Source: Capitulum mitella
Taxonomy: Eukaryota > Arthropoda > Thecostraca > Pollicipedomorpha > Pollicipedidae
Direction of reading: 5' to 3'
Assembly: GCA_030062745.1 (NCBI GenBank)
Contig: CP099845.1
Coordinates: 20,606,556 to 20,670,555 of the forward strand
Length of the DNA: 64,000 nucleotides
Part shown: positions 22,441 to 62,915 of the stretch, in pieces
Numbering within the stretch: position 1 is the stretch's first letter
Layout of the letters: each line of letters starts with the position of its first letter
Made by a program: the position numbers and the translations under genes
Notes under the pieces: generated by a model
Told to the model about the DNA's origin: nothing
Database searches by the model: none
What the model saw: only the letters and a program-made list of their open reading frames with translations

Positions 22441-23693
22441 CTCCACTAAGGTAGACCTACGAAAAAGACCATGGCGCTTCGTTTTAATTTTCAGAGGTCA
22501 TAAATAAATAACGGAAGGACGAATGAACGGAGTTGTAGTTTTCCCGGCTCAAACGGCGATTTTATCGTTGTTCTGGACCGATTCGTGTTGCCCTTAGAAG
22601 AGCATTCAATTTGTGGGATCATAGAACGGTCGTTTTAAGTTGTGTAATAGGGAAGTTAAATTGTTGTCAGAAAGCTTCATTTGTTGAGTGGCTATGAAAT
22701 GCTTTCAACATCTGACTTCGATGCATAGCAAGATTGACGAAAGATGATACATGATGTGACAGCATAATCGCCTGCCTGGTTTATGTAATTATACAGTCAT
22801 ACTATTACCTGCAAGACACCTGACTATGCGGCGATTTCAGCACTTTGGCTGGCCACTCTGTAAATTCTTGTTTTTTTTTAAACTTAGCAACTTACAGAAG
22901 ACTTAAACATGACATAAGGGTCTAAATAATAACGAAGAACATAAGAAATATTCATGGCTGGCGCTGTAGTATGCAAGCATAAGTAGCCCCTATATGAATA
23001 GATAATCAAACAGAGTCAAAACTAGCTTAAGTTTCATCGCCTTCTAAGATCAGAAAAAAATAATGGGAAAAGAAATAAATAATGTTCTACATCCGGACCA
23101 ATGTGGCAGCTTTGCAATGAGCTATGAAAATATTTTTCTTAACTTCTTGGCAGTGGTATTCATTTTCCCTCAGTTTCGTCTGCATCGCGACGAAAAGTTG
23201 GCCGTAAGCGCTGGATTTCAGTTGCCATCCGCAAACCTACATTCGATAAAATTTCGTTAAAATAATGCAGAAGAAAAACAGAAAAGTATCTGGGACTTCA
23301 ACGTCGAGGTACGCTTGCTGTTCAACCTCTACTCGTTTATCACAAGCCGACAGTTCGATGAGAAAACAAAAGCGACTTTAATTTGCAATGTTGAAACAAA
23401 AACATCCTGGCATGTTCCGATGTCGAAGTAATTTCGGATCTGAACTTCGCACGTCACAAAACCATTAAATGTATCTTGGCAAACATGTTGGGATAAATGA
23501 AAAGCCATCGCGGATTTCATTTAGTCTCATACATGATCAAAGGTAGATCACCTGCCGAACATGAATCTTTATGTTTGAACGTCATCGTTCGATTATGACA
23601 GGAAGCGGGACAGATGCCTGACGCGGCGTGAGAAGACAGCATCAGTGCTGAGCTGAGGCGACGGCACAGGTGGCTCGTGCCCTGAGCGAAGGC

Positions 23694-23897
23694 GGCCGCA
23701 GAGGCGCCTTCAGTCGTGAACAGTGGCGGCCGCAGAGGCGCCTTCAGTTCTGAGCAGAGACGGCGGCAGGGGCGCCTTCAGTCGTGAACAGAGGCGGTGA
23801 CAGAGGTGCCTTCGGTCGTGAACAGAGACGGCGGCAGAGGCGCCTTCAGTCGTGAACAGAGGCGGTGGCAGAGGTGCCTTCGGTCGTGAACAGAGGC
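23694..23897. repeat. 34 bp minisatellite, six copies
   Basis: Six direct copies of a 34-base unit run from 23694 to 23897. Each contains AGAGGCGCCTTCAGTCGTGA followed by ACAGAGGCGGCGG or close variants. The unit is not a multiple of three, so the frame rotates in each copy. It abuts the left end of the GST triplication. Confidence 0.9.
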
Positions 23898-24114
23898 GGC
23901 GGCGGTTCCTGGCGGCTCGCGAGGGGGCGGCCGCACCTGACAGGAGTCCCCTCCACGCGCTCCGCCAGCCCCAGCGACTGTCCGGCGCACAGCAGACCGC
24001 CGCAGGCTGTCGCGCCATGCTGACTGGCAATTTCTGCTGCCTGAGACCTTGACGGAGGCCGGCCGGCTCCACGCAGGAGAGACAAAACAGACGAGCCCAG
24101 CGTCCGTGTCCTGC

Positions 24115-25232: not shown

Positions 25233-27312
25233 ATGGGAGTCGACATTTACTACGTGGAGGGCAGCCCGCCTTGCCGCACCGTCCTGCTCACGGTCAAGGC
25301 CATCGACCTCGACTGCAACCTCAAGTTGATCAGCATGCAAGACGGCGAGCACAAGACGCCCGAGTTCCTCAAGATGAACCCGCAGCACACCGTTCCCACC
25401 ATGAATGACAACGGCCTCTATCTGTCCGAGAGGTGAGTGCAAAGCAACACGTTCCAATGACCCAGGTGTTTCGAAAGGCAGCGCTGATCCCATCTGAACG
25501 CAGACTTGACAACGGGTTGACTTGCGTCGCGACGTGATCATGCAGGAGCTGGTGTGCCAATTGAAATTCTTCTGCGGTCAGTTATTTGTTGTCTTACAAG
25601 CACATGAAGCAAGCGTCTTCGACGTATGGTCTTAAGGTAACTGACTATCTATCATCACTTGAACTAATCCGAATTCACAGCCGGGCGATCGCCACCTACC
25701 TGCTGAACAAGTACGCCCCGGACAGCAGTCTGTATCCCAAGGACCCAGCCGCCCGCGCACGGGTCGACAACCGGCTCTACTTCGACACCGGCCTGTTTGC
25801 GTCCATCAGGGGCATTGCGGTAAGTATCTCTGAACAAATTCATACGCTGCGAAAGCTTTGACGAGAAAGGTCTGCTCTGAAGGTGCGTTAGCGTCATGTA
25901 TGCAGTGATTGGAATGCAGAATACCATGTTGTTCGTTTTTAGTTCGTATTTACACCAAGTCCAGGTTAGGCTGATGAAATTCCACTAATTGGTATCTCTT
26001 GACAAACAAGAGCATGCCTGCCGAGATCACGCATTTTCTCCGAAGGCGTTGCGTCAGGCTGTCGATCCAAGGTCAACATATGTAAAACTTTTTGTTGTCT
26101 CACCTTTACCCACGCCAACTTTCAATCCGGGCTGTTGGACAGGTGCTACACCCCGGTGGTATCTTTGCCCCTTTCGCTGACTTGCCTTAAACCAGTGATA
26201 CACCTAAGTGTTGTCACTAGTAAAGACCTTTAATGACATTTCAATCTCGTCAGTCCATCGTCTGAATAATACATCTCCGTAAAACGTCCCACCGGCTTCA
26301 TCGTTTTTGTCATGAAATAGAACTTTTCCTGTACTGGCTGCCGTTTCATGGCAGTAGTGCTATTTCCATCCACATGTCGTCTCGATATGAAACTGAAACA
26401 TGCAGGATTTTGACACCGTCTTGGACGCACTCTTAGTGCAGAAGGCCGAGAACGTTCAGCCATGGTTTGCGTTGCTTTGAGTAACGTCGTCAAGGTAGCG
26501 TAAACCACGGCTACCTCTCAAACAGATCGGACCCTGGTGTTTCGTGTCCTTGCTTATCGCAATGACGTCAAACTCGCCGCATGTACGGCAAGACAATCGC
26601 CTGGAGTTTCGGCGTCTGAGTATCCGAATAATGACCCGAAAACCAACCTTCCATTTACCCATTCCCAATCTGAGCATGCAGCAGTTCTTATTCACGACTT
26701 CCTAGGCCTTGGGTTTACACGCCTTTTAGGGTTTCTTGGCACGCTGCTACACTATGTCAGTCATGGGAACGATCATATGCGAATTAAATTTAGTTCCTTT
26801 TAATCAACGTTCCGTTGAGAGTTTTAGACAAATCTTGCATGTTACTCCATGATAAACTGCATTTTTCTGCTCGTTTTCAAGACATTGCTTTCAAAACTTC
26901 TAATCCTGACCGTACCTGCATTAGGTACGATTCCATCTCAGAGCACTGTACACCACTGCGCTGGATTAGTGAACCACTGACTGTATTTCAGTTCCCGCTG
27001 CTGTTTATGAAGAACCTGGAGGAGTCCCAGAAAAACATGGACAAGGTGATCGAGAATCTTGGCTACTTGGAGACGTTCCTGAGCAACTCACCGTACGTCG
27101 CTGGCGACCATTTGACTGTGGCCGACCTGGCTGTCCTCGCCAACGTCTCCACCCTGGACGAGGCCGGCATTGACCTTTCCCCCTTCCCGAAGCTGAACGC
27201 CTGGCTGGTCAAGCTGAAGTCCGAACTGCCGTACTACTCAATCAACGACAAGGGCGCCAAAATGCTGGGAGCCGCGTACCGTAACGCCAAGGCGGAGTGC
27301 GAAAAGAAGTAA
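25233..27312 (+). CDS. Glutathione S-transferase, delta/epsilon class, paralogue 1, 219 aa
   Basis: Coding exons are 25233-25432, 25681-25819 and 26992-27312, with introns in phase 2 and phase 0 as in the other three GST genes. It has the active-site motif EGSPPCR with catalytic Ser11, NPQHTVP at 49-55 with cis-Pro55, ESRAI from residue 66, and the C-domain capping box VAGDHLTVADLAVL (149-162). The protein should be cytosolic and dimeric, transferring glutathione to electrophilic substrates. The start ATG lies seven bases after the acceptor; an upstream in-frame GTG was rejected because it falls in the intron. A short upstream ORF (ATG AGC GAG CTC, seven codons) lies just before that acceptor. 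Compared with paralogue 2 it differs at about six residues. The likely polyadenylation signal is AATAAA at 28531, giving a long 3' untranslated region. Confidence 0.96.
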
Positions 27313-29825: not shown

Positions 29826-31874
29826 ATGGGAGTCGACATTTATTACGTGGACGGCAGCCCGCCTTGCCGCACCGTCCTGCTCACGGTCAAGGCCATCGAC
29901 CTCGACTGCAACCTCAAGTTGATCAGCATGCAAGACGGCGAGCACAAGACGCCCGAGTTCCTCAAGATGAACCCGCAGCATACCGTTCCCACCATGAATG
30001 ACAACGGCCTCTATCTGTCCGAGAGGTGAGTGCAAAGCAACACGTTCCAATGACCCAGGTGTTTCGAAAGGCAGCGCTGATCCCATCTGAACGCAGACTT
30101 GATAACGGGTTGACTTGCGTCGCGACGTGATCATGCAGGAGCTGGTGTGCCATTTGAGATCCTTCTGCGGTCAGTTATTCGATGTCGCACAAGCAAATGA
30201 AGCAAGCGTCTTCGACGTATGGTCTCAATGTAACTGACTGTCCATCATCACTTGAACTAATCCGAATTCACAGCCGGGCGATCGCCACCTACCTGCTGAA
30301 CAAGTACGCCCCGGACAGCAGTCTGTATCCCAAGGACCCAGCCGCCCGCGCACGGGTCGACAACCGGCTCTACTTCGACACCGGCCTGTTTGCCTCCATC
30401 AGGGGCATTGTGGTGAGTATCTCTGAACGAATTCAAATGCTGCGAAAGCTTCGACGAGAAAGGCCTGTTCTGAAGGTGCGTAAGCGTCATGTATGCAGTG
30501 ATTGGAAAGCAGAATACCATGTTGTTTGAGAAATTTAGGCTGATGAAATTTCACTAGTTTGTATCTCTTGGCAAACAAGAGCATGCTTGCCGAGATCGTG
30601 CATTTTCTCCGACGGCGTAGGCTGTCGATCCAAGGTCAACACATGCAAAATTGTTTGTTGTCTCACCTTCACCCACGCCAACTTTCAATCCGGGCTGTTG
30701 GACAGGTGCTACACCCCGGTGATATCCTTGCCCCTTTCGCTGACTTGCCTTAAACCAGTGATACACCTAAGTGTTATCACTAGTACAGACCTTTAATGAC
30801 ATTTCAATCTCGTCAGTCCATCGTCTGAATAATACACCTCCGTAAAACGTCCCAACGGCTTCATCGTTTTTGTCATGGAATAGAACTCTTTTCCTGTACT
30901 GGCTGCCGTTTCATGGCAGTAGTGCTATTTCCATCCAAATGTCGTATCGATATGAAACTGAAACATGCAGGATTTCGGCACCGTCTTGGACGCACGCTTA
31001 GTACAGGACGCCGAGAACGTTCAGCCATGCTTTGCGTTGCTTTGAGTAACGTCGTCAAGGTAGCTTAAACCACGGCTACCTCTCAGACAGATCGGACCCT
31101 GGTGTTTCGTGTCCTTGCTGATCGCAATGACGTCAAACTCGCCGCATGTACAGCAAGACAATCGTCTGGAGTTTTGGTGTCTTGAGTATCCGGATAATGA
31201 CCCGAAAACCAACCATTCAATTTACCCGTTCCCAACCTGAGTATGCAGCAGTCCTTGTTCACGACTTCTTGCCTTGGCCTTGGGTTTGCACGCCTTTTTG
31301 ACACGCTGCTACACCATGTCAATCGTGGGAGCGATCATATGCGAATTAAATTTAGTTCCTTTTAATCAACGTTCTGTTGAGAGTTTTAGACAAATCTTGC
31401 ATGTTATTCCACGATGGACTGCATTTTTCTGCCCGTTTTCAAGATATGGCTTTCAAAACTTCCAATCCTAGCCGTACCTGCATTAAGTACGATTCCATCT
31501 CAGAGCATTGTACACCACTGCGCTGGATTAGTGAACCACTGACTGTATTTCAGTTCCCGCTAGTCTTTATGAAGAACCTGGAGGAGTCCCAGAAAAACAT
31601 GGACAAGGTGGTCGAGAATCTTGGCTACTTGGAGACGTTCCTGAGCAACTCACCGTACGTCGCTGGCGACCATTTGACTGTGGCCGACCTGGCTGTCCTC
31701 GCCAACGTCTCCACCCTGGACGAGGCCGGCATTGACCTTTCCCCCTTCCCGAAGCTGAAGGCCTGGCTGGTCAAGCTGAAGTCCGAACTGCCGTACTACT
31801 CAATCAACGACAAGGGCGCCAAAATGCTGGGAGCCGCGTTCCGTAACGCCAAGGCGGAGTGCGAAAAGAAGTAA
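29826..31874 (+). CDS. Glutathione S-transferase, delta/epsilon class, paralogue 2, 219 aa
   Basis: Coding exons are 29826-30025, 30274-30412 and 31554-31874. Their lengths (200, 139, 321) are identical to paralogue 1. All glutathione-site residues are kept: Ser11 in DGSPPCR, NPQHTVP, Glu66-Ser67 and the capping box at 149-162. Differences from paralogue 1 are E9D, A113V, L117V, I133V, N182K and Y209F; residues 113 and 117 lie in the helix 4 region that borders the hydrophobic substrate site in related GSTs. The upstream seven-codon ORF seen in units 1 and 3 has lost its ATG here (ATC). Introns are GT-AG and intron 2 is 248 bases in all three units. Confidence 0.96.
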
Positions 31875-34411: not shown

Positions 34412-36531
34412 ATGGGAGTCGACATTTACTACACGGAGGGCAGCCCGCCTTCCCGCACCGTCCTGCTCACGGCCAAAGCCATCGACCTCGACTGCAACCT
34501 CAAGTTGATCAGCTTGCAAGACGGCGAACAAAAGACGCCCGAGTTCCTCAAGATGAACCCGCAGCACACCGTTCCCACCATGAATGACAACGGCCTCTAT
34601 CTGTCCGAGAGGTGGGTGCAAGGCAACACGTTCCAATGGCCCAGGTGTTCCGAAAGGCAACGCTGATCCTATCTGAGCGCAGACTTGATAACGGGTTGAC
34701 TTGCGTCGCGACGTGATCATGCAGGAACTGGTGTGCCAATTGAAATTCTTCTGCGGTCATTTATTCGTTGTGTTACAAGCAAATGAAGCTAGCGTCTTCG
34801 ACGTATGGTCTTAAGGTAACTGACTATCTATCATCACTTGAACTAATCCGAATTCACAGCCGGGCGATCGCCACCTACCTGCTGAACAAGTACGCCCCGG
34901 ACAGCAGTCTGTATCCCAAGGACCCAGCCGCCCGCGCACGGGTCGACAACCGGCTCTACTTCGACGTCGGCCTGTTTGCGTCCATCAGGGACGTTGCGGT
35001 GAGTATCTCTGAACAAATTCATACGCTGCGAAAGCTTCGACGAGAAAGGTCTGCTCTGAAGGTGCGTTAGCGTCATGTATGCAGTGATTTGAATGCAGAA
35101 TACCATGTTGTTCGAGAAATGCTCGTATTTACACCAAGTCCAGGTTAGGCTGATGAAATTCCACTAATTGGTATCTCTTGGCAAACAAGAGCATGCCTGC
35201 CGAGATCTCGCATTTTCTCCGACGGCGTTGCGTCAGGCTGTCGATCCAAGGTCAACACATGCAAAATTGTTTATTGTCTCATCTTTACCCACGCCAACTT
35301 TCAATCCGGGCTGCTGGACAGGTGCTACACCCCGGTGGTATCCTTGCCCCTTTCGCTGACTTGCCTTAAACCAGTGATACACCTAAGTGTTATCACTAGT
35401 AAAGACCTTTAATGACATTTCAATCTCGTCAGTCCATCGTCTGAATAATACATTGCCGTAAAACGTCCCACCGGCTTCATCGTTTTTGTCATGAAATAGA
35501 ACTCTTTTCCTGTACTGGCTGCCGTTTCATGGCAGTAGTGCTATTTCCATCCAAATGTCGTATCGATATGAAACTGAAACATGCAGGATTTCGACACCGT
35601 CTTGGACGCACTCTTAGTACAGGAGGCAGAGAACGTTCAGCCATGGTTTGCGTTGCTTTGAGTAATGTCGTCAAGGTAGCTTAAACCACGGCTACCTCTC
35701 AAACAGAGTGGACTCTGGTGTTTCGTGCCCTTGTTTTTCTCAATGACGTCATACTTGCCGCATGTACAGCATGTACATGCTGTGCATGCTGATTGTCTTA
35801 CATGTACAGCAAGGCAATCGTCTGGAGTTTCGGCGTCTTGAGTATCAGGATAATGACCCGAAAACCAACCTTTCCATTTACCCATTCCCAATCTGAGTAT
35901 GCAGCAGTCCTTGTTCACGACTTCTTAGGCCTTGGGTTTGCACGCCTTTTAGGGTTTCTTGGCACGCTGCTACACCATGTCAATCGTGGGAGTGATCATA
36001 TGCGAATTAAATTTAGTTCCTTTTAATCAACGTTCTGTTGAGCGTTTTAGACAAAGCTTATTACTCCACGATGGACTACATTTTTCTGCTCGTTTTCAAG
36101 ACATGGCATTCGAAACGTCTAGTCCTGGCCGTACCTGAATAAGGTACGATTCCATCTCAGAACATTGTACACCGCTGCGCTGGATTAGTGAACCACTGAC
36201 TGTATTTCAGTTCCCGCTAGTCTTTATGAAGAACCTGGAGGAGTCCCAGAAAAACATGGACAAATTGGTCGAGAATCTTGGCCACTTGGAGACGTTCCTG
36301 AGCAACTCCCCGTACGTCGCCGGCGACCACTTGACTGTGGCCGACCTGGCTGTCCTCGTCAACGTCTCCACCCTGGACGAGGCCGGCATTGACCTTTCCC
36401 CCTTCCCGAAGCTGAAGGCCTGGCTGGTCAAGCTGAAGTCCGAACTGCCGCACTACTCAATCAACGACAAGGGCGCCAAAATGCTGGGAGCCGCGTACCG
36501 TAACGCCAAGGCGGAGTGCGAAAAGAAGTAA
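34412..36531 (+). CDS. Glutathione S-transferase, delta/epsilon class, paralogue 3, 219 aa, changed active-site flank
   Basis: Coding exons are 34412-34611, 34860-34998 and 36211-36531, with the same lengths and phases as its two sisters. The catalytic Ser11, NPQHTVP, Glu66-Ser67 and the capping box are present. It is the most diverged of the three, with about 15 changes from paralogue 1. These include V8T and C14S beside the catalytic serine (GSPPSR instead of GSPPCR), V21A, M35L, H40Q, and T103V, G111D, I112V and L117V around helix 4. The reading frame is intact and splice sites are normal (first donor GTGGGT), so it should be expressed. The substitutions suggest altered substrate range rather than decay. 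Substrates cannot be read from sequence. Confidence 0.95.
35769..35809 (+). repeat. Unit-3-specific palindromic insertion in GST intron
   Basis: In units 1 and 2 the intron reads CGCATGTACxGCAAGACAAT. In unit 3 about 40 extra bases separate two copies of CATGTACAGC and include GATTGTCTT, the reverse complement of the neighbouring AAGACAATC, plus the palindrome AGCATGTACATGCT. This is the pattern expected from a replication template switch. Confidence 0.6.
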
Positions 36532-37787: not shown

Positions 37788-40700
37788 TAAAAGCTCTCAA
37801 GTTATTGCAATATGGAAGCAAATGAGCTATTCTGGGGTAATATCTTCCTGATTCGGTGCCTACTGGTGGGGAACAGGTTAATGACGTGTTTTCGTAATGA
37901 AAAGTTCGTATTAGCGCATGTTATAATATTTTTGGGGGGAAAGGCCGTCTTTGTTTGAAAGCCCCCTCTTCTACCGATCCCCACATTCCCGAGTGCGCTT
38001 ATAGGTGATCGAGAGACAATAAACTCAGTGCCGACCATTGACTCATGCAAACAAACCTTGATAAGCCGCGCACCATTCGAAGGACGTCACTGTTGACTGT
38101 TCACCTCAGAAGTGCACTGGCAAGGTCACAGTTTGGCTGATAGCTCTCGCGAGAGTCGGCGCCTCCGGAACACTGTTCCCTCACTAATGACTCAGCATAA
38201 GTAATCCCAAACTAATGGCCATAATTCCTCGGCGGTGAATCCCGTTAGAACTCAGCGGAAGCTGGCAGGAGTTCTCACCGCGGACGGACAAATTTCGCTA
38301 TTCGCTTCGCTCGAGGCTGGCCCGGAGCCTCTCCAGCGGCAGGGCTGTGAACCGAGCTGGTGATTTCGCGGACGGTATTTGGTGACCTCATCCGACCGAC
38401 CCCTGACTCTCTGGGCGGGGGGGGGGGCATGTGTTATGACTGCCGTTGAATCGGCGCCTGTGGCCAGCGCTGCCGGCTGTGGTTGCCTTTGCGCGGAGAC
38501 AGAAGACCTAGAAGAAAATACGTTATTTTTCGACGGACCGGTTTTTTTGGCGCGTCTGGCGACACGTCAGCACAGCGAAGCCTTGACGTGAAAACTGTGA
38601 GGGACGGCAAAGCCAGCCAGACCAACTCACGATCAACCAATAATGGCAGACAGAGTCGCGTTATAGCATCTCCCGAGTTTTTTTGGTTTGGTCTGGTATA
38701 GTGTCATACATTTCATACAAATGTTTGTTATATGACGGTCTCAAGAAGTTTCACGGGGTGTAAGAGCCTGTTTTGCCCTCCTGTAGGTTATTCAGAGGCA
38801 CACACTGCAATATACATAATTCAGAGGCACATACTGCACACTGCACAGGCACAAATAGATTGGGAAACACAAATAGATTGGGAAAAACGCACGCGTGATT
38901 CCTGGCTGAGGTGAAGATCGCAGATAAAAATATAGCTTTTTCCAGAAATGCCACGACGATGATTACGTCCAGGATTTTTTTGCGTCATTCACGTACACGG
39001 AACGTACACCGCCCCGAGAGAAATCGGCACAAAAACCCCACCGGCTATTCAAACAGGAAAGCGTAATCCGCCAGGCGCCGCGTTTGCTCGCGCCAGAAAC
39101 GTCACAAAAACCACCGCATCCAGCGCGGGGAGCGGCGACCTGACCTCGAGCCGCAGCCGGGGCGGCCAGCAGCCAACCTTGGGGCACGGCCTCCGTGATC
39201 GGCGCGAGAAGACGGCACCGTCGCGAGGGCGCGCGTGCGACGTGACTTGCGTTTCTGCGCGGCGTGCTAGCTCGCGTGACGGAAAGGCCGGGTCATTCAG
39301 CGCCCCTGGATTCTGCGTCGACCGTCGGCGGGCGAACGGAGGGGGCGCGCGGCGGCTCTGGACAGTCACGCATTCGGCAATGACCCAGATACTGAATAGC
39401 GCCAGCTGCCAGCAACCTGTCTTTAGTGGTTACAAAGCATCACTTCTTTCTGAAGGCTATCATGTTGTCCGGCTTCTTTCTCAATGTATTGCAGTTCTGG
39501 ACAGGCAGAATGATTAAAAGTCCTGTGTCCCTTCTTTCGGCAATAATTGGACCCCCACTTTTTTCGCAACAGAGCAAATGCACAATGAGTTCCTAAAGCC
39601 AAAATTATTGCGGCAGCGTATAAAGGCACATTTGCACCGGATGAGATTTAGGCAATTTTTGCTTGCTAACTTCTGAGAGTGCCTGTTGCTTAGTTGGCCA
39701 AATGTTCGCCAGTTCTAAGAGCATTGATTTTATGTGAGTTTTAATGTCATATTTAAGAACAAAAGACACAGGCTATTGTTGTGGAATGTTCAACTATGAA
39801 GGTTTGGAAGTTAGGAAAGCCCGAAGAAATTTCCATACCATTAATTTATTTGTGAATCAAAAAAGGCGGTATGATTTAGGTGTATCTGAGTACAAACAAC
39901 ATCAGTTTAATACAAAATGCGTTAAATAGAAAGGTTTCATCAAAGACCTGGAAACACCCTTTTTAATTTAAATTATCAAATGCATGAGAACGGCCTTTTT
40001 GAGACGAAACGTCGTGCTTGAGGGATTACTTTTAAAATAGTTTGTCTATTTGGAGCAGCCGCACACCTCACCATTTCCTTCCCATATACGTGACTGCAAC
40101 ACCTGCAGACACGTGTCTCTGCAAGCGACATCAACACTCAGACATGGCCGTGCAGATTGTCGGAATGGCTTCCACGTGAGCGTGGTCTCAGAGACGAACG
40201 CGTCACATGGCTGCGGCATGCCGCCGACCTCACGGCCAGCAGGTACGATGAAGCTGATCGGGTTTCTCGCCGTGAACCGGCACGCGGGAGCAGTTGACGG
40301 CCTCCAGAGCGAGCACGAACGTCCCTTGAGCATCCGCTCCGCGACCCAGCCGACCCCTCGTTCATTCAGCTGACTGCCTGCTCGGACGACCACGTACGTA
40401 CGATGTTTTTTCTGGATGCTCCCGGCTACCCTACCGGTGCCTTGCCGCCGAATCCGGTTCAGTTCCAGTGTTGTTCGCTGGCGTGAGCTGTGAGGCGCTA
40501 ACGAGGAGGCTGATTAGGTTCGGGCTGGTTACCTGGTTAGGGTTGGTCGGAACTGTAACGCCGGTGTCTGCGAGAGACCTCACGGAACGGCAGGTACACA
40601 AGCAAGGCGGAACGCGGACAGAAAGATCCTGCATTCTACTCTTCCATTTCTGTCACTGAGAAGAAGGCGAAATCGTGTGCCCGTAGACAAGAACCGAGAA
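37788..40700. other. Intergenic region between the GST cluster and the transporter
   Basis: No gene is supported. GC- and CpG-rich patches occur at 38270-38620 and 39010-39370 and may be regulatory. A run of 11 G lies at 38417-38427. Small direct duplications occur at 38790-38890 (ACACAAATAGATTGGGAA twice in a row; TTCAGAGGCACA twice). The 5' leader of the transporter probably lies within the last few hundred bases. Confidence 0.4.
38188..38197 (+). promoter_or_regulatory. Antioxidant-response-like element TGACTCAGCA
   Basis: TGACTCAGCA matches the Cnc/Nrf2-Maf recognition pattern TGACnnnGCA, which commonly controls GST and cystine-transport genes. It sits 0.4 kb after the GST triplication and 2.5 kb before the transporter. 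This is a motif match only. Confidence 0.3.
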
Positions 40701-40722
40701 GGACGACCTGACTGCCACCGAC

Positions 40723-42321
40723 ATGGACAACCCGGCCTTCGTTAATCACGCTGTCGAAAACGACGCACCGCAAAATGACAAACGCGAAGCAGGAGCGCCA
40801 GCCGAGGACTCGGCAGAACCATCTTCGGCCAGCGCCCCGTCGGCGAAATCCGAACAGGTCAACTCAGGGCGCCACCCGCCAGCGATCGGCCGGCACCTCC
40901 CGCCGGCCGACGACGCAGCCCGCCTACGGCGCTCCGTGGGCCCGCTCTCCGCCGTCGGCGTCGTCATGGGCACGATGATCGGCGCCGGCATCTTCGTGTC
41001 GTCGCGCGGCGTGCTGGCGCGCGCCGGCTCGCCGGCCGCCTCGCTGGCCGTGTGGGCCGCGTGCGGCGTGCTCTCGACGCTGTGCGGCCTCTGCTACATC
41101 GAGCTGGGCGCGCTGGTGCCGCGGTCGGGCGGCGAGTTCGCCTACCTGCTGGAAGGCCTAGGCCCGTTACACGGCTTCTTCGGCCCGCTGTCGGCCTTCC
41201 TGTTCGCCTGGGTGACCGGCCTGGTGACGCGACCGGCCAACACGGCCATCCAGGGCCTGGCGTTCGCCGAGTACTGCGTAGAGCCGTTCTTCGGCGCCGC
41301 GTGCGGCACGCCGCCGCTTGCGGTGCCGCTCGGCGCCGTCTGCGCCGTCTGGCTGGCCACCTTCGTTAACTGCTACAGCGTCACGCTGACGACGACCATG
41401 CAGAACCTCTTCACCGTCGCCAAGCTGGCCGTGATCGCGGGCATTCTCGGCATCGGGGCGTACTCGGCGGCGGCCGACGGCGCGCGGCGCCTGGCGGCCG
41501 GGCTCTCCTCCGGCGGCGCCGCCTCCGTCGGCAGCCTGGCCACCGCCTTCTACGGCGGCCTCTGGGCCTTCGACGGCTGGAACAACCTCAACTTCCTGAC
41601 GGAGGAGCTGCGCCACCCGGGGCGCGACCTGCCGCGCGCGCTCACCGCAGGCGTGCCGCTCGTGACTGCGCTCTACCTGCTGGTGAACGCGGCCTACCTG
41701 GCCGTGCTGTCGCCGCGCCAGCTGCTGGCCGCGCCGGCCGTGGCCGTGGCGTTCGCCGAGCGCGCGCTGGGTCCGCCCGGCCGGCTGGTGCCGCTGCTCG
41801 TGGCGCTCTCCGTGCTCGGCTCGCTCAACGGCGGCGTACTGACCACCAGCCGGATCGCGTTCGCGGCGGCGCGGGCCGGCCACTTCTCGGGCGCCCTGCG
41901 CCTGATCGAGGCGCGCCGCCGCACGCCCGTGCCGGCGGCGCTGCTCAACGCTCTACTCGCCACGGCGATGATCGCCGCCGGCGACATCGGCAGCCTGATC
42001 GACTGCGCCAGCTTCACCGTCTGGATCTTCCAGGGCCTGTCGATGGTGGCGCTGCTGGCGCTGCGGCGGCGGCCGCGCGCCGCGCCCGGCCGCCGCCTGC
42101 CCGGCTGGGTGCCCGGCCTGGTGCTGCTGGCCGCTGTCTGGCTCGTCGTCGGCCCCGTCGTCGAAGCGCCGCGGCTCATGCACCTGTGCGTGGCCACGTT
42201 CGTGCTGCTCGGCGTGCTGGTGTACGCGCAGTGCGTGTACCGCCGGCGGACCCTGCCCGGCACGCGGCGCATGACCGTGCTGCTGCAGGTGCTGATGGGG
42301 CTGGTGCCGGGTGAGGGGTGA
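40723..42321 (+). CDS. SLC7-family amino-acid transporter light chain, 532 aa, intronless
   Basis: A multi-pass plasma-membrane amino-acid exchanger of the heteromeric (LAT/b0,+AT/xCT) family. Residues 1-70 are a hydrophilic N tail. The first membrane helix carries GTMIGAGIFVSSRGVL (83-98), the family's substrate-backbone motif. ELGALVPRSGGEFAYL (127-142) follows. EPFFGAAC (187-194) aligns with the loop whose cysteine forms the disulfide to the SLC3 heavy chain, so Cys194 is the expected partner. AFDGWNNLNFLTEEL (282-296) marks helix 6, and SLNGGVLTTSR (367-377) and TPVPA (401-405) follow. The C end, TVLLQVLMGLVPGEG, matches the family end, so the ORF is complete. About 12 hydrophobic segments are visible. 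The gene is a single very GC-rich exon. The N tail is longer than in most mammalian members. Cystine, neutral or cationic substrate preference cannot be decided by eye. Confidence 0.93.
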   Translation: MDNPAFVNHAVENDAPQNDKREAGAPAEDSAEPSSASAPSAKSEQVNSGRHPPAIGRHLPPADDAARLRRSVGPLSAVGVVMGTMIGAGIFVSSRGVLARAGSPAASLAVWAACGVLSTLCGLCYIELGALVPRSGGEFAYLLEGLGPLHGFFGPLSAFLFAWVTGLVTRPANTAIQGLAFAEYCVEPFFGAACGTPPLAVPLGAVCAVWLATFVNCYSVTLTTTMQNLFTVAKLAVIAGILGIGAYSAAADGARRLAAGLSSGGAASVGSLATAFYGGLWAFDGWNNLNFLTEELRHPGRDLPRALTAGVPLVTALYLLVNAAYLAVLSPRQLLAAPAVAVAFAERALGPPGRLVPLLVALSVLGSLNGGVLTTSRIAFAAARAGHFSGALRLIEARRRTPVPAALLNALLATAMIAAGDIGSLIDCASFTVWIFQGLSMVALLALRRRPRAAPGRRLPGWVPGLVLLAAVWLVVGPVVEAPRLMHLCVATFVLLGVLVYAQCVYRRRTLPGTRRMTVLLQVLMGLVPGEG

Positions 42322-53589: not shown

Positions 53590-53850
53590 ACCGCGCTCCC
53601 CGGCTCTAGGCCGAGCTCTGCCAGCTCTAGACCGCGCTCTCCCGGCGCCTGACGACCGGCAGCAGCGGCGCCGCTTCTCCGGCCGCCGGCCTGGCCGCTG
53701 GCCGGTGGAGTCCGCTCGCCGGGAGGTCGCCTGGTGGCGGCGGCGGGCCCGCCGCGGCAGGCAGACCCTTCAACACGACGGCCGCCGGTGCAGCGTGAAC
53801 GGCGTGCAGGCGCTCGGCCGAGCAGTGATTGGCGGACGACACGGCAAGCA
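53590..53850 (-). CDS. Possible GC-rich terminal exon of the minus-strand adhesion gene
   Basis: On the minus strand a very GC-rich ORF reads AERLHAVHAAPAAVVLKGLP, then a Pro-rich run (AAAGPPPPPGDLPASG), and ends VVRRRESAV with a stop near 53627. A second minus frame is open over the same bases. Pro/Ala-rich composition would suit a cytoplasmic tail, and the position lies downstream of the transmembrane exon at 57.9 kb on the same strand. No convincing acceptor was found, so this may be only a CpG island. From 53850 to 55150 I see no gene. Confidence 0.18.
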
Positions 53851-55159
53851 AAACGAGGAGAAACCATCATTGTCATGCGCATGCAGCAATGCGAGTAGTC
53901 TGTACACTGAGCAAAAGCGTCGCTAGAACGCAAAACAAAACAGGTTAGTACACTCCAGAAAACATAAGTCATCTGGGTGTAACATCTGCGACAGAACAAA
54001 CCCAGCGTAAAACAGTTTTCGAGGAAACTTTTCATGATCTAAAGAATCAAGAGCAATGAAGCATTTTTATGTCTAAGGGTCTTTGAGATGACTAAGCACT
54101 AGCATCTGACAGAGACGAGACAACACATGCATGCAATAAACAGGCCATAACACACATATCGAACCATCGCAATGGATAATTCTGTCATGCAAGTGCATTC
54201 AGTTGACCAAAATTATGTCTGTATTATCTTTTTCAACGTGATGTAGGCGTTTAAGCCTGGGTGGTTTTCACGAAGACAAGAAGCATTTTATGTTGAAATG
54301 CAAATAACGTTCAGTAGACAGCAGATAATGTGACTGAATAGTACGTTGTAAGAGTATTTTGTGATTCCGTTTACAAAAACCAAACCCAGTTGAAATATTT
54401 GCAATGATTTATATATACTTGTGTATTTACATGCTGCATGTTTCTTCCTTTAATTCAGGGGCGTGAGGCCCAAGACCATTGATTCTAGACACGTTTTCAC
54501 CCACAAAATGAAAAGTCAAGCATTTTTGTCTCTCCTCGACGGGAACGACTACAATCTAACTCACTCGAAAGCTCAACTTCGCCTCTACCGTTTTTCCTTT
54601 CCCAATAGCTAATCGCTATTGAGACTGATACATTGAACAACAAGCTGTCAGCTTTTTCTTCAGTGCTCTCAGAAAACGATTTAATTCATCACGAGATTGG
54701 AGTGTGTTTAGCGGAACGAAGTTCTAGATTGCCGCTCGAAATTTATTGCTTTAGAGGATCGGTAAAGCTGGTACCGTCTGAGGAAGATAGGAGCCCTTAT
54801 AGCGCTTCCTGCTGGAGCAGGCTTTATCAAGCGAAAAATTTCGCTGCAAACAATCTCTGTTTGGCCTTACGTTCTGAAGAAGTATGCAAGCAGGGAAGAC
54901 TAGGATAATATTCGCTCAATCTGTAACCCCCCAAAAATTTCTCAGGTTAAAACGGACGCAACAATAGCAACAACCCATGACTGCCGTAGACGTAGTGCCC
55001 ACTCTAGCTTGATTTCTCTGCGTTCATTTTGTCTGCGGTTGGGAACGTGGCCAAAGTGCAACAAGCACCGCTCCCAGTGCCAAGCACCAACATCCTGAGG
55101 CGACTTGAACAGCTCCAGCCAAGTGTGGGGCTAAGCCACTGGAGCGGTCCCGGGCCGCC

Positions 55160-55690
55160 TGGGACTCTTCTTACCGGTCCCTGGTGGTGTCGGAGGACCC
55201 CCACCTCTCTTACCGGTCCCTGGTGGTGTCAGAGGCCCCCCTCTCTTACCGGTCCTTGGTGGCGTCAGAGGCCCCTCTCTTACCTGACCCTGGTGGCGGC
55301 TGAAGCCCCCTCTCTTACCGGTCCCTGGTGGCGACAGAGGCCCCTCTCTTACCGGCCCCTGGTGGCGGCTGAAGCCCCCTCTCTTACCGGACCTTGGTGG
55401 CGGCAGAGGCCCCTCTTTTACCGGCCCCTGGTGGCAACAGAGGCCCCTCTCTTACCGGTCCCTGGTGGCCAGGGGCCCCTCTATTGCTGGTCCCTGATGG
55501 CGGCAGAGGCCCCTTTCTCTTACCGGTCCCTGGTGGCGCCGGAGCCCCTTCTCTCACCGTCCCTGATGGCGGCAGAGGCCCCTTTCTCTTACCGATCCCT
55601 GGTGGCGCCGGAGCCCCTTCTCTCACCGTCCCTGATGGCGGCAGAGGCCCCTTTCTCTTACCGGCCCCTGGTGGCGCCCCAGGGACCGGC
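55160..55690 (-). repeat. 34-36 bp minisatellite carrying repeated 5' splice sites
   Basis: About 15 direct units of 34-36 bases. On the minus strand each reads approximately GGTAAGAGAGGGGCCTCTGC followed by CGCCACCAGGGACC. Fourteen of the fifteen keep GGTAAG or GGTGAG, a consensus U1-type donor, at the same place; only the unit near 55482 has lost it. The right half (55500-55690) alternates two unit types (GGTAAGAGAAAG and GGTGAGAGAAGG) as a 69-70 base higher-order repeat. Long ORFs open on both strands as a result. Whether any donor is used is unknown. Confidence 0.85.
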
Positions 55691-55843
55691 CCGAGCGGCG
55701 CGGCAGCGTCTGGAGGTCTCGCACCGGCGGCGGAGGGTCGCCGAAGCTGGCCGGAGGCGGCGGGAACCGACTGTTCCGGAGCCTCTCGATCATGTGCTTC
55801 TCCTCCGGGTCCAGGTACTCTGCGGCAGGCCACGGCCGCCGGC
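55662..55843 (-). CDS. Candidate cytoplasmic-tail exon beside the splice-site minisatellite
   Basis: The minus frame reads PAAEYLDPEEKHMIERLRNS, then RFPPPPASFGDPPPPVRDLQ and TLPRR, which looks like a proline-rich intracellular tail, with coding-like third positions. A good acceptor (GACGCCCCCTCAG) ends at 55844 and another (CCTGCCGCAG) ends at 55820. A good donor (GGGGCCG followed by GTAAGAG) starts at 55661, and further identical donors follow in the array. It lies 2 kb downstream of the transmembrane exon on the same strand. Neither first-choice acceptor is in phase with that exon, so an intermediate exon or another acceptor is needed. Linkage to that gene is inference. Confidence 0.4.
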
Positions 55844-55949
55844 CTGAGGGGGCGTCCGCGTCCGGGCGATAGCGCGGCCGACTTGGCCAAAACACGAGAG
55901 CCAGCTCAGTCCGGTGACGGGAGAACATTCCGCAGGGAATGACTGGGTG

Positions 55950-57830
55950 AATCTTTCACCGATTCTTCGAGGGCATCAGCAGTGCTGATGATGTTGATTA
56001 CGCAAGGACAGCATTCATAACAGAAAAACACAGTCGAGCGTAGTGCTGTAGATCCAGACAAGCACAGAAGGGACGCCCGATACCCGGCGTAATCTGTGTA
56101 TTACCATATGCGTAAGAGCATTGTAAAAAAAGAAGTTAAGAAGTAGGGACGGCATATTCTGAGTCGACTCTGCCCCCGCATTCCTTTAGCGTTAGCGTTA
56201 AAGGCCGAATTAAAGGGGGAGGCATGGATCCCTGCTATGGATGGATTCCTTCGTTCTTACGACTACGGCAATGACAAGTCGTAATCATGATCACGAACAA
56301 ACCGTGATGGTGCGCATTCATGAATCAAGAAGACAGACAGGTACCTGTTTTCTGTGGTATTAAATCTGGATCGTGCTTCTCCTCGAAGCTGCCTGATTCG
56401 TCGAAGTTTCTTACAAGCTGAACGTGGCATGCTCCCTGCTGGTTCTCCTTCGAAAAGACCCCATGCATATCACACATCAGCATGCGTCTCAGCATGATCA
56501 GCCCGGCATATAAAATAACTACTTACAAATCAGCCTGATATGTGGATAGCACATTCATATTCCATTAGCAACTGATGCTTCGGAATAAACGTAATGCGTA
56601 TGGAACTTGTCAGCTTGGTTCATTCCGAGAGCATGGTTTCACTGTTTCAAGCGTGTTGACAGAGTGTTAGCAATCCCAGCAACGCGACAGACTAAAAGGA
56701 ATTATGCAAAAGTGTTCAGTCTCTGCAAAATTATTCCTTTCTCGTGGGAAGATTTCCAAGGAAAGAGAACTTAAACAACGGGAGTCCCCAAGACAAACAA
56801 CACACAGTGACAGAGGTCCTCAAGCACAAACAGACATGGCAAATAGCGAGGTATTTGAGGCAGAATTATGGTGGCGGGCACTCTGCTTCTGTTAGTGACG
56901 TTTAAAGCCCGTTTTCGTCTGAGTCGGCCTCAAGCGAAAACTTCTGAAATTAGTAGTACAAATATGGGTGGAAAACAGTAATTCAGGATTTAGATGTTCT
57001 TAACCATTTTCAATTTGTTGCTCTTCGAAACTGCCGGGAAAGCAAGCGACCTGAAAATATGTAAACAGTAAAACGAATTACTCCTTTGGAGTTAACTTTA
57101 CGAACATTTGTTCTACCGTTTTGGGACCTACGCAGCAAGAAAGTGCTATAACGACAACGGTAGATGGATTACAAAGCGTGCATGGATGCGTCGCCTGTAA
57201 CGTCGCCTTACAACGTACACTGGTCATTTCTGAAACGTACAGGTCTGAAGGTTTCTTCTGCCGTTCTGATTGTCTTACACATTGAACAACAGATGGATAC
57301 TGACAGAATGATTTGACGAACTCTTCCAGGACAGCAAACTAGTTACTCAGCTATTTTCTGTCTGTTTCATGACCGCAGAAAAGTTGGGTCACGGAAGATA
57401 AAAGCTGGTCCATTGTAAGGACATGCTGTTGTCCCGTACCGTTTTAGGCAAGTTACGTACACACCACGCCTCTCATGGTGCTCTCATGGTCTGACGTTAG
57501 ATGCTTAACTTTTATCGACATGCCCACGATATTACTATTTTTTTTAATATACTAGCACTCATTTATGAAACGAGAGTCGAAAGGCGGAAAGATTATCTTA
57601 TTCCACGTTACAATATTTCGCCAAAAAGACATTCCGATAATTTCACTGAGACAAAATCTATTTCAGATTTCTCCAAACCAGTCTTCTTGGAACATCTGAT
57701 TGATAAATGGCTCGACGTTCACGAAGGAACCGACAAATAACCCCCGGATCTTGACAGGTAATCATCCCATCATAACTCGTCTCAGAATGTTCTGCCCAGG
57801 TCGTTCTGTACAGCACTGCGCCATCAAACG
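55950..57830. other. Presumed intron or intergenic DNA, no exon supported
   Basis: Only short ORFs (63 and 79 codons on the plus strand) with no recognised domain. On the minus strand this would be intron between the transmembrane exon and any tail exon. Confidence 0.35.
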
Positions 57831-57892: not shown

Positions 57893-58947
57893 CTTTGCCT
57901 GCGGCCGCGCGCGGTACCTCCGCGTCGCGGCGATGATGCCGGCGGTGAGCGCCAGCGTCGCGACGACGCCGACGACCACGCCCAGCACGGGCGTCAGCTG
58001 CAGCAAACCGGCCAGCGCGCCTGAGGGCACACCAGCGGCGGCGCCGCGTCAGCGCCAGCGGCCGGCGCGGCCGGCGGCGGCGCCGGCTAACGAGAACGCC
58101 GGCTGCCGGTGAGCGCGGCGTGACGTCAGCCGGCGCGGCCAGGCTCGGCGCGGCCCGGAGCGGAGCCGCCGCCGTGAGATCGGCGCTCACGGTCCAGTGG
58201 TCGGCCGAGCACGCCGCCTGCCGGGGTCGGCACGTCAAGGGCAGGAGCGAAGGCGGGGCTGAGGCTGCAGCGGCTCGGCCGGTAGCTCCCCACACACTTG
58301 CATATGTACCGCGCTAGGAAGGTCAGATGCCTACCCCGGAAGGAGCAGCTGTGATGAACGTGCCCCGGCAAAGGTCGAGTGACGTATTACCACCGTGGAT
58401 GAACATTTCTCTGGTCGGTTTACGGAATACAGGTTCTCTTCCTGTGAAATGCAAGTCCCAGGCATTCATGTTTTTATGAGACATCAGACCTGAGACAGCA
58501 GGCATCTCGCCGGCCGTCCCTTGGGATTTAGATGGCAGACCCAGAACCGCTGCCTTCAGGCATTTAGGCATCAGCCGTCAGGAACCTCCAAATCGTTCTG
58601 TTACACCGCCTGCTTTGTAACGACAGGCTTCCCTACATTGTCTACAGCACAAACGAAGCGCTACACATCTAATCTCAGCCCTGCCGGTAGCAGCCCAATC
58701 AGGTGCCGCAACACCTACACACTTTCTGTCAAATACCAAAACAAAAATGTCCTCCAGCCCCAACTGCCCCCCCCCCCCTCTTCCCCCGGCGGTGAAGCCG
58801 GTCCACTCACGGCCTCCGGTCTCCGGCGCCTCCTCGCCGTCCAGGGTGTGCGCCACGAGCGTGTACGGCTCGCTGGCGCCGCGCGTGTTGAGCGCGTACA
58901 CGGAGAGTTGGTACGGCCGGCCCGGCAGCAGCCCGGAGGCGTTCAGT
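57893..58947 (-). CDS. Sidestep-type adhesion protein, partial: end of fibronectin III domain plus transmembrane exon
   Basis: Two minus-strand exons are clear. The first, 58947-58811, encodes LNASGLLPGRPYQLSV, YALNTRGASEPYTLVAHTL and DGEEAPETGG, the last strands of a fibronectin type III domain, entered after GTGCTGTGCCGCAG and left at GGCC followed by GTGAGT. The second, 58020-57893, encodes QLTPVLGVVVGVVATLALTA then GIIAATRRYRARPQAK, a single transmembrane helix with a basic stop-transfer tail, between CCCTCAG and AAAG followed by GTACGAG. The exon ends fit in phase (1+2). The order fibronectin III then a TPxLGVxxGVV helix is typical of the arthropod Sidestep family of immunoglobulin-superfamily receptors (Beat partners in motor-axon guidance). 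The Ig-domain exons must lie beyond the right edge of the window, because none is visible up to 64000. Family assignment rests on recognising the helix and its preceding motif. Confidence 0.68.
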
Positions 58948-60356
58948 CTGCGGCACAGCACCGGAACATTCAGCGCCGCAGAGGTCGGTCTCAGGCGTCG
59001 TCCTCAGCGTTCGAACTCAACCTAGGGCCTGCTTGTTCAGTGCTCAACTGTCCGTTCGCCCCTTCAAGGCATTGTCGTCGAAGTGGACGGAATCAGGCTC
59101 TGTTGCGATATTCCTCTGGCATCGCTGGCATCGACCTCTGTGCCGGGCAAAGAACTGCTGTTCTGGTTGCTGTAACTATCGCCCTTTATTTCAATATTGT
59201 TGCCGCTTCCATTGCTGTCGCATTTCGTTCGCTGCAACAGGCACAACACAAATCACCACAAGCTGCGAGTGCGGCACCCAAAAAGGCATTTATGATTCAC
59301 GCCGTGATGTAAAATTAATCATTCCGGCGGAACTTTTGGTGCTTTAAAGTGAATCGTGTTAGCATAAGAAAATCGTAAGCACAAATATGAGATTTTCATC
59401 TAACAGTAAAGGTCCCTTTGGAAACACGATTCAATGATACTTGTGTTTACCCTTATTCCCGGAGGGCTAGACGGTATAGCCGTTGCCGGCATGGGGTTTG
59501 CCCCCTGAGATCTCGAGAACTCGAGAACGCATCCGATTTAATTACAACAAATGAGCTGAAGACCAAAATGGAGGGCATTTTTAAGCTTGTTATAACTCCG
59601 CTGTTTGTTCGCCCATTTTGATGAAATTGGCATAAATCGAGAAGTTATGGACGGAGCTTTTACCTTTGGTCCATATCTTCGTAATTTGAGAAATTTCATA
59701 GACGTTCACGGGTTTCAAAAATGGAACCATTAGTTCTGAATTAACAAAACAGTTAAAAACGCTTTCTTGACATTCAGTAGTCATGTTATGCTGAAGAAGC
59801 ACAAATTGTATTACACTCTTTGTATAAAGTTGACGTAGGCAGTGCTAGGGACATGAAAAGGGAGAACTGGCGTGGTCACATGTTCATCAGATCAACTTAC
59901 GACCTCTGACCTTAAATGACCTCCAGTGACCTTAGAGTTACGCGGGATGATCTTGAGTGCATTTCATGCTGTCTGAAAACGTTTCTAGTCATTTTAATCT
60001 GCTCTATTTCTAAAATTTTATTTTACGGCTGTTGTGATATACGGTACGCTTACTGACATTTTATGTCATAGCTCCATGAGCCGACCTAATATTCAACTGG
60101 AAACCTTGTACATAAGAAGAGGGCACCTTTCTATGTGATATGTATTCCGGATTTGGCACTTGGAAAAAATAGCATCAAAATTATTACTATAAAACCGATT
60201 TTTTCACTTCTGACCTTGGCCTGACATTATCAGAAGATCTCAGAATAACAAAATTACATTTGTTGCTTGCCAAACTATTTACCTTTACATCCACATAAAG
60301 CTTTAAATTCTATCTTAAAAGCGCTCTTTTTGGCAGCCATTTTCCTTTTACCTTAA

Positions 60357-61553
60357 CCCTATTCCCGGAGGGCTCGACGGTATGGTTGATTTCCGGCAGG
60401 GGGGGCGGATTCGGCCCCCCCTGAGATCTCGAGAACTACTTGTCCGATTTCATCGCAACAAACGGCAATCGACTTGCCATGATGTAAACTACATTTTTTT
60501 ACAGAAAAAATTGAAAGGTGTAGATACACGGGGGGCAAAAATTTCAAAATAAGGGATATTTTTGGACTTCCTATAACTCCGTTGTTTATGGACCGATTTC
60601 GATGAAACCGGCATGAATCAAGAGATTATGGATAGGACTTTCACCATTAGCACACACATCTGAAATTTTGGGAAAATTCATCGGCGTTCACAGGGTTTCA
60701 AAAATAGGATGATTATTTTTTCAACCACTGAATGAACAAAAAAGGCAAAACACTTTTTTGGCTTCTGCTAGTCATGTTATGCTAAACAAGTACAAATTGC
60801 ATTACAGTGTTTGCATAATATTCGCATAGGCAGTGCCAGGGACATGAAAAAAGGGAACTGCCATGGTCACATGCTCTTCAGATCAACTTGTGACCTTTGA
60901 CCTTAAATGACCTCCAGCGACCTCCTTGGAGTCACTTGTAATGATCTCATGTGCATTTAATATTATCTGCAAACGTTTTCAGTAATTTGAATTCACTCTA
61001 TTTCAAAAATTTCATTTTATGGCAATTGCGATATAAGATACGCGCACTGACATTTTAGGTCATAGCTCCGTGACCCGACCTGATATCAAGCTGAAACTTG
61101 ATACACAAGTAGAGGGCATTTTTCTGCGTCATATGTATTCCGGGTTTGGCATTTAAAAAACCGCACCGAAATTTTTGCGATAAAACCAAATTTTGACTTT
61201 TGACCTTAACCTGACCTTGTAAAGTTACCTCAGATGGACAAAATTATATCTGCACATTGCCCAGCTATTTATCTATACATCCATATAAAGTTTTAAGTTT
61301 TATCTTAAAAACGCCGTTTTTGGCAGACACTTTCCTTGTGCCCTCAACATGGCCAAAAATGGCATGAGGTGCCTCCCAACAACGTTGCCTGGCTTCGATC
61401 CTGAGCAAAATAGGTTTTTGAAATTTTGTCACGGCACGTAAAAAGAATAGCTAGGGAAAGTCACCATGTTTCGTGAAACTGCGTTAAAAAGCCTGGAATT
61501 GGCAAGCCAAAAACCCGAGGGGGGCTGATTCAGCTCCCCTGCCGGGAATAGGG
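60357..61553. mobile_element. Inner TTAA element (piggyBac-like MITE), 1197 bp
   Basis: It begins CCCTATTCCCGGAGGG and ends CCCTGCCGGGAATAGGG, with ends inverted over about 16 bases with one gap. It is flanked by exact TTAA on both sides (60353-60356 and 61554-61557), the expected piggyBac target duplication. It interrupts the related outer element. No ORF of useful length is present, so it would need a transposase supplied from elsewhere. Confidence 0.82.
60891..60903. promoter_or_regulatory. Consensus DR1 nuclear-receptor site inside the inner element
   Basis: TGACCTTTGACCT is, on the minus strand, AGGTCAAAGGTCA, a perfect direct repeat with one-base spacing of the type bound by HNF4 and RXR/USP. 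More TGACCT half-sites follow within 30 bases. The outer element has the related CGACCTCTGACCT at 59900-59912. Confidence 0.4.
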
Positions 61554-62763
61554 TTAAACAGGGACAACAAATGGCCTGAGATGCCTCCCAAAAACGTCAC
61601 CTGGCTTTGTCCTTGAGCAAAACAGAATTACGAAATTTTGTTGCGGTGCATGCAAAGAATATGTAGAAAAATTGAGCAGGTTTCGTGTAGCTGCATCAAA
61701 AGCCCTGAAATTAGCGAGCAAAAAACCCGAGGGGACGGATTCAGTCCCCTGCAGGGAATAGAGTTAATAAGCATTTACAAATTTCTGGTTTTCATTACAT
61801 CGCAGCAGAGATCTGAGTTTGATGTTAGTGTCCTGCTGCACGAGGGATGACATGGATCTCCAGCTGATGGTACCTATTTTGCAGCGTGGCAGCAGCCGAG
61901 GAGAACAGAGCGTCGGTATTCCTTGGCTTCCAGCGAGTGGACGCGGTGACGGAAGGCAATGCGACAAAGGTCTGCCCAGAGGGAGACGACTGGCTTCGTA
62001 CTCTAGCTAATGGCAAAGACGCTATCTAGTTCACATTTTTCCTGTCAACGAGCAGCAAAAGTGCGCGAGTCAGGGAAGAGGCGCTGGGCTCCTCACGTGC
62101 CTTGCAAACTTAAATTAGGCGCTTGTTTGCCTGCTACGGCGCATGAACTCATAAAGTATACCTGCTTGCTGTGTATAAATAGCGCATAAAAGGGAATGTA
62201 GTTTCTTTACTCGTCCATGAAATGGGCACTGTGTCCATCAAACTGGCGCAAACATTATACTTACTGCAATTTTCCTTTGGAGAACCACACAATGGACTCT
62301 CAAAAGAATATTAGAAAAAACTGCAACGGGGCTAAAGGTAAGTTTCTGCCCGACGAAATCGCAAACAATCCTTTGTATAGTTGCCACCAATGTAAATAAT
62401 GTATCATCCTGTTTCTAACCATACTTTCCACTAGTTGATTTTTTAAAAAATAAGAAAATCGTAACGATAATGTACCACTCAGTAGTACCTTGCTGCAGTC
62501 GACTGGCGTAGAACGACATTATTCCGTGGCGGAAAATGTAGTGCCGCCAAGGTTAAGGTTATTGACATCAAGGATGTGTAGACCCTGCATGCATCTTGAA
62601 GCGATTAATGACGTCATATACATGGAAATTATATTCTGTTGCCACAGACTGAATTTGAGGAACTGCTGAATTATTACGCCGTTATATTATTGTATTAGAT
62701 AATTGTTGGGATATCTGACATCAGTATTATTACACTATGACGTTTAATACTCGTTAGATTACA

Positions 62764-62915
62764 TTAGGTTGCTAGGTTGGGTTGTGCTGGGCTAGGTTAG
62801 ATAAGGTTAGGTTAGGTTAGGCTAGGTTAGGTTAGGTTAGGTTAGGCTAGGCTAGGCTAGGCTAAACTAGGCTAGGTTAGGTTAGGTTAGGTTAGGTTAC
62901 TTTGTTAGGTTAGGG
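62764..62915 (+). repeat. Interstitial telomere-type repeat, TTAGG/GCTAGG
   Basis: About 150 bases made mostly of GTTAG and GCTAG pentamers, including runs of four to six perfect TTAGG units. TTAGG is the arthropod telomere repeat. It is embedded in ordinary sequence on both sides, so it is an interstitial block and not a chromosome end. Confidence 0.9.

Follow-up and report, generated by a model that had tools for sequence, protein, structure and literature searches.

The window, a stretch of 64,000 nucleotides from contig CP099845.1 of the barnacle Capitulum mitella, contains a minisatellite whose units carry a 5' splice site on the minus strand. The array probably lies within a minus-strand gene, five predicted exons of which encode half of an fn3 domain, a membrane helix and a cytoplasmic tail, the full model being a prediction (Table 1). 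By conceptual splicing all five exons join in one frame, and several of them match a paralog on another contig, so that the minus-strand gene proposed by the first-pass annotation is upheld as a prediction. A six-frame Pfam scan of 49-64 kb returned a weak fn3 half-domain only, at ~58.9 kb on the minus strand. In the DNA further upstream on this strand Pfam detected Ig domains (Ig_3, E 9e-19) in three stretches, and by motif reading we recognized further Ig-like stretches as far as Ig1 at extended coordinate 83568. The upstream Pfam scan covered the three frames of one segment, two of the three frames of the next, other than that of Ig1, and once more one of the three frames of 59-64 kb in the window; Ig1 therefore rests on its motif and on the family search described below. 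Likewise, the count of five Ig domains comes from motif reading, with Pfam Ig families in one upstream segment and a weak fn3 match. When solved structures were searched with Ig2, the best match was SYG-2. The tail exon matched no family in Pfam and gave chance hits only in the PDB, and an Rfam scan of the window yielded nothing at the gathering threshold.

With five Ig-like stretches followed by fn3, TM and a short tail, the order resembles that of Drosophila Sidestep (Side), which is described as having five Ig domains together with FNIII, a TM segment and a cytoplasmic domain that is short (PMC8209334). By this analogy in domain order, matched to Side by description, we regard the array gene as a putative Sidestep relative. 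Relative to the gene's strand, two repeats with a spacing of ~990 bp (59756-60167 and 60747-61160; similarity 77-82%) and a tandem pair of 212 bp (61346-61767) also lie upstream of the fn3 exon; the repeats in 59447-61767 are perhaps the remains of repeat elements.

Table 1. Positions of the array, its donors and the predicted exons in the window
Feature	Position	Strand	Basis
Predicted exon, second half of fn3 domain, LNASGLLPGRPYQLSVYALNTRGASEPYTLVAHTLDGEEAPETGG	58811..58947	minus	Pfam fn3 below curated cut-off; paralog match E 6e-7
Predicted transmembrane exon, phase 1 to 0, ALAGLLQLTPVLGVVVGVVATLALTAGIIAATRRYRARPQAK	57893..58020	minus	Conceptual join; paralog match E 5e-6
Predicted juxtamembrane tail exon, phase 0 to 1, GACHVQLVRNFDESGSFEEKHDPDLIPQKT	56345..56435	minus	Phase fit only
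Proline-rich cytoplasmic-tail exon, 158 nt, EYLDPEEKHMIERL...GRHQGP, phase 1 in, phase 0 out	55662..55819	minus	Donor CCG/GTAAGAG = first unit
Donor 1, predicted canonical 5' splice site CCG/GTAAGA, U1 duplex -8.2 kcal/mol	55656..55664	minus	U1 pairing, conceptual splicing
Minisatellite of 34-36 bp, unit with 5' splice site	55169..55676	minus	TRF and unit parsing; 15 boundaries
Dead boundary of the array, AGCAAT replacing GGTAAG	55483..55488	minus	Unit parsing
Strongest array donor by U1 pairing, CAG/GTAAGA, -11.1 kcal/mol, boundary 12 (55284)	55278..55286	minus	U1 pairing
Predicted intron, array at its 5' end	53813..55661	minus	Conceptual splicing
Predicted last coding exon, phase 0, RLHAVHAAP...VVRRRESAV*, stop codon 53629-53627	53627..53812	minus	Phase and C-terminal resemblance

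An array-free paralog

The tail exon, used as a genome query, had six matches, namely itself and five of low score, of which one, on contig C9, was informative. The low-score matches on C12, C16 and C1 contained stops or agreed in proline-rich stretches only, and were discarded. In the C9 exon EYLDPEEKHMIERL is identical at all 14 residues, with DNA differences at silent sites; the acceptor, CAG/AG, has the same position, and an ordinary phase-0 donor, CTG/GTGAGC, closes the exon. The surrounding C9 region matches Ig1, Ig2 (in pieces), Ig4, Ig5, fn3, TM and tail exon of the array gene in the same order and on one strand. The third Ig stretch matches only the fifth Ig of the paralog, and we found in the paralog no good counterpart to the juxtamembrane exon or to the body of the last exon. 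The subsequent phase-0 frame on C9 ends in RESSV, versus RESAV in the array gene, and the likeness of the last exon to the paralog is confined to this end, the rest giving low-complexity matches; the acceptor of this exon is GAG, not CAG. Both C termini may be PDZ-ligand-like.

Since the start and the end phase of the tail exon are common to the paralogous exon (G000:C9:2901983-2902072), there is very probably a genuine exon in this proline-rich stretch, and its phase-0 donor would be the first unit of the array, at 55662. This agrees with the first-pass annotation, which had placed such an exon directly beside the array with the first unit as its donor. The predicted C9 intron measures 680 nt and contains a single GGTRAG, its own donor; TRF found no array with a period of 10-100 in it. 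About 35 nt past this donor, where the array gene has its minisatellite, we noted a run of TG dinucleotides.

A genome query with Ig1 gave at least 21 matches (E up to 0.23), of which 11 were on C7 and 10 on C9, out of 16 contigs. A whole-genome duplication has been reported for barnacles, and Capitulum mitella is reported to have 16 chromosomes (PMC11331182, PMC8416341). The confinement of the Ig1 matches to C7 and C9 is as would be expected for a gene family located on a duplicated chromosome pair.

Array units and their likeness to the exon end

TRF reported the array in two rows, as 14.6 copies of period 34 (55169-55676) and as 7.3 copies of period 69 (55169-55678). On the minus strand we parsed 15 donor-like boundaries, 11 of them GGTAAG and 2 GGTGAG, i.e. 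13 of 15 with GGTRAG. The exceptions are GGTAAA at 55422 and AGCAAT, without GT, at 55488. The array is thus in place as first annotated, but the 14 of about 15 units that were said to carry GGTAAG or GGTGAG are reached only if GGTAAA is counted as well; similarly, the unit length of 34-36 bp holds for most units, the full spread being 32-39 nt. The exon-proximal part of the array is made up of two alternating unit types, and the 69-bp copies at 55490-55558 and 55559-55627 are 99% alike. Such near-identical dimers on the exon side suggest recent turnover, the copy-number evidence coming from one assembly. GGTRAG is found 13 times in the array, compared with a mean of 0.42 and a maximum of 4 in 2000 mononucleotide shuffles, and all 12 occurrences of GGTRAGAGA in the window (0.64 expected) are inside the array; both excesses restate only that the array is a repeat. 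The predicted intron contains no GGTRAG beyond the array. Searching the 477-Mb genome (16 contigs) with a sensitivity that skips very common words, we found no second match to the array DNA.

The array begins at the end of the exon and runs in sense orientation. We compared the last 24 nt of the exon with 14 unit ends and found 16-18 matching positions for 11 of them. With all 14 unit ends compared, 32 of 100,000 shuffled exon ends attained the best match of 18, a version that supersedes a comparison with four chosen unit ends (8 of 100,000 shuffles). The remaining three unit ends match at 9, 9 and 13 of 24 positions, two of them being shifted by a one-base deletion. The exon end of the C9 paralog matches any of the 14 unit ends at 9 positions at most. 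Given this agreement between the final 24 nt of the exon and most unit ends, the unit spans the exon/intron boundary, with ~16-18 nt of exon-like and ~16 nt of intron-like sequence. The earlier suggestion that the unit arose from such a boundary is thereby supported, in the sense that the unit arose from the boundary or engulfed it. On the sequence evidence, the simplest account is that the boundary was tandemly duplicated and then expanded, a direction judged against one paralog; instead of duplication outward from the boundary, an intronic array may have grown into the exon end.

Conservation, strength and predicted use of the donors

The first-pass annotation had seen possible constraint in the retention of the donor among otherwise varying units, and had named beforehand a comparison of mutation rates at donor and non-donor positions. 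In a gapped alignment of 14 units to their consensus, from which the last partial unit (boundary 55175, GGTAAG) was left out, substitutions were present in 6 of 84 cells of the donor hexamer and in 33 of 388 other cells (one-sided Fisher P = 0.44). Counting the 11 indel events as changes, the numbers were 6/84 and 44/396 (P = 0.19). Hence we did not find significant donor-specific conservation among these 14 related, non-independent units, which provide little power, and the comparison lends the idea of constraint no support, although weak constraint may be present. Half of the donor changes (3 of 6) sit in the single dead boundary, and both AGAGGG, directly after the donor (2/84), and CCACCA (3/84) are substituted less often than the donor hexamer itself. 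The donor hexamer is free of indels, and most of the length changes fall in the purine run after the donor. An ungapped anchored alignment had given P = 0.005 (6/84 versus 66/350). This value is misleading because the one-base deletions of units 1 and 3, like the other differences in length, displaced bases that were then counted as changes, and the alignment was replaced by the gapped one. A MAFFT alignment of the units was misaligned at the G run and was left out.

With regard to donor strength, the U1 duplex has an energy of -8.2 or -8.3 kcal/mol at 12 of the 15 boundaries, donor 1 included, while two others, at -5.5 and -1.1 kcal/mol, are weak or dead. Of all 3845 GT sites on the minus strand of the window, those of the array among them, ~2.3% match donor 1 in pairing.

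In conceptual splicing to 53812, the RESAV tail was kept with donor 1 alone. Donor 2 shifted the frame, which then ran to ...HRRPSC and stopped 43 nt into the last exon. With any of donors 3-15 the result was one and the same truncated tail (...VRERGLCRHQGR), as it was for the unspliced transcript, because the TGA inside the unit-2 donor stops the frame of the exon. For the same reason the length of the array alters the count of possible donors but not the protein past unit 2; of the earlier proposal that array length would change both the donor number and the tail, only the first part holds for the later units. For donors 4-15 the TGA stop lies 65-448 nt ahead of the junction. According to the 50-nt rule, a stop located far enough before a junction can trigger decay, and at these distances transcripts from donors 4-15 could be subject to it. 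More generally, GTRAG holds a stop (TRA) in one frame, so that a repeated donor whose period is no multiple of three can bring the upstream reading frame to a stop in the space of a few units. Such early closure, here at unit 2, limits the protein consequences of later donors.

Interpretation and known boundary-spanning minisatellites

We consider it likely that the array is an expanded boundary duplication in a Sidestep-like Ig/fn3 receptor gene and that its donors have been kept by descent. A segment across the 3' end of the cytoplasmic-tail exon (~16-18 nt) and the beginning of the intron that follows (~16 nt) would have been tandemly duplicated, and the duplicate would then have expanded to ~15 units. 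The units would contain donor-like hexamers because every one of them descends from the boundary, and turnover, as in the recent dimers on the exon side, would keep them alike. The first donor would be used, as in the paralog, and is the one most likely to work, donor choice being predicted here. Use of donor 2 would shift the frame; with donors 3-15, or if the intron is retained, translation would stop at the TGA within the unit-2 donor, and any donor except the first would thus lose the predicted RESAV C terminus.

Alternatively, the array could be a regulated splicing switch, in which competing donors, the stronger boundary 12 among them, send part of the pre-mRNA into truncated or unstable transcripts and thereby control how much of the RESAV isoform is made. 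Repeat units are reported to be able to serve as donors in human IFI6 (PMC4526556), whereas the amphioxus minisatellites discussed below are suggested not to disturb regular splicing (PMC3087553). In the present array the U1 pairing at 12 of 15 boundaries, and the still better pairing at boundary 12, would suit such a switch, as would the loss of the RESAV end with each alternative donor and the lack of indels inside the donor hexamer. However, the donors show no significant excess of conservation, one boundary is dead and another weakened, and the paralog is without such an array, so that we regard a functional role of this kind as unlikely. Slightly less likely still is the speculative case that the donors act as decoys that tune the share of mRNA with the RESAV (presumably PDZ-ligand-like) tail, copy number being a heritable dial in one of two duplicated genes.

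It is improbable that we are dealing with an ordinary GC-rich minisatellite in an intron, in which GGTRAG would be incidental and the similarity to the exon end secondary. Across ~314 kb of neighbouring and paralog DNA (a background other than a random genome sample), TRF listed 36 rows, some overlapping, with a period of 10-100 and three copies or more, and the other period-34 array of the window, at 23690-23903, has a 12-mer in common with the donor unit. Yet GGTRAG occurs in at least half of the copies in only 1 of the 34 other rows (two overlapping rows being the donor array), and the predicted donor falls in register with the first unit, the exon end itself being unit-like. That the array is coding is very hard to credit: stop-free frames do run through minus 55384-55905 (an open frame of 173 codons through part of the array) and plus 55008-55847, but open frames are expected in GC-rich repeats, and the frame set by the paralogous exon (EYLDPEEKHMIERL) is another one, which stops at unit 2.

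As an expanded boundary duplication, the array is a boundary-spanning minisatellite of an already described kind, with human IFI6 and the amphioxus 'mirages' as precedents that run counter to the first-pass remark that no such system had been described. The minisatellite of the human gene 6-16 (IFI6, G1P3) reportedly provides multiple splice donor sites (Turri, Cuin and Porter in 1995). Two downstream repeat units are reported to serve as donors, giving rise to three mRNAs (PMC4526556). The likeness lies in minisatellite units that are splice donors, demonstrated in IFI6 and predicted in our array; the gene and the phylum differ, and the human unit is shorter, with 26 units of 12 nt at the end of exon 2. 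Like our array, the human one starts at the exon end in sense orientation. The amphioxus mirages, found in Adh3 and the globin genes BflGb6 and BflGb9, are described as minisatellite-like tandem duplications across exon-intron boundaries, both 5' and 3', with splice signals in many units; regular splicing seems undisturbed by them, and their copy number is unstable (PMC3087553). Like the mirages, the array has a unit that spans an exon-intron boundary, and its many units with a splice signal (13 of 15 with GGTRAG) are a feature of this type of minisatellite. In contrast, the mirages belong to a cephalochordate, with units of 10-72 bp in Adh3 and ~150-160 bp in the globin genes (PMC3087553), and undisturbed splicing and length instability are reported for them, whereas the array is known here from the sequence of one assembly. 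In human segmental-duplication paralogs, minisatellites with units of ~30 bp on average are reported to alter exon-intron structure at boundaries; the boundary cases in that report concern novel intron formation in recent primate paralogs and not a donor repeated ~15 times (PMC2812944).

Among the matches listed in our literature search there was no barnacle or Sidestep case of a donor minisatellite. The array adds a probable crustacean example to the small class of donor-repeating minisatellites, and its array-free paralog is a built-in control. If later donors are used, they would offer a natural test of spliceosome choice among near-identical neighbouring donors.

Elsewhere in the window, glutathione S-transferase C-terminal domains are encoded in four open frames on the plus strand (18846-19208, 26794-27309, 31356-31871 and 36139-36528), three of them nearly alike, and the four together form a tandem GST cluster. 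The period-34 minisatellite at 23690-23903 (6.3 copies) lies between glutathione S-transferase exons, and the 12-mer GGCGGCAGAGGC that it has in common with the plus strand of the donor array may reflect kinship or chance. A single open frame of 544 codons on the plus strand (40687-42318) matches an amino acid permease (AA_permease_2, E 1.5e-48). Finally, an array of (TAGGT)n, presumably the arthropod telomere-type repeat, is located inside the chromosome at 62793-62914 with 24.8 copies.
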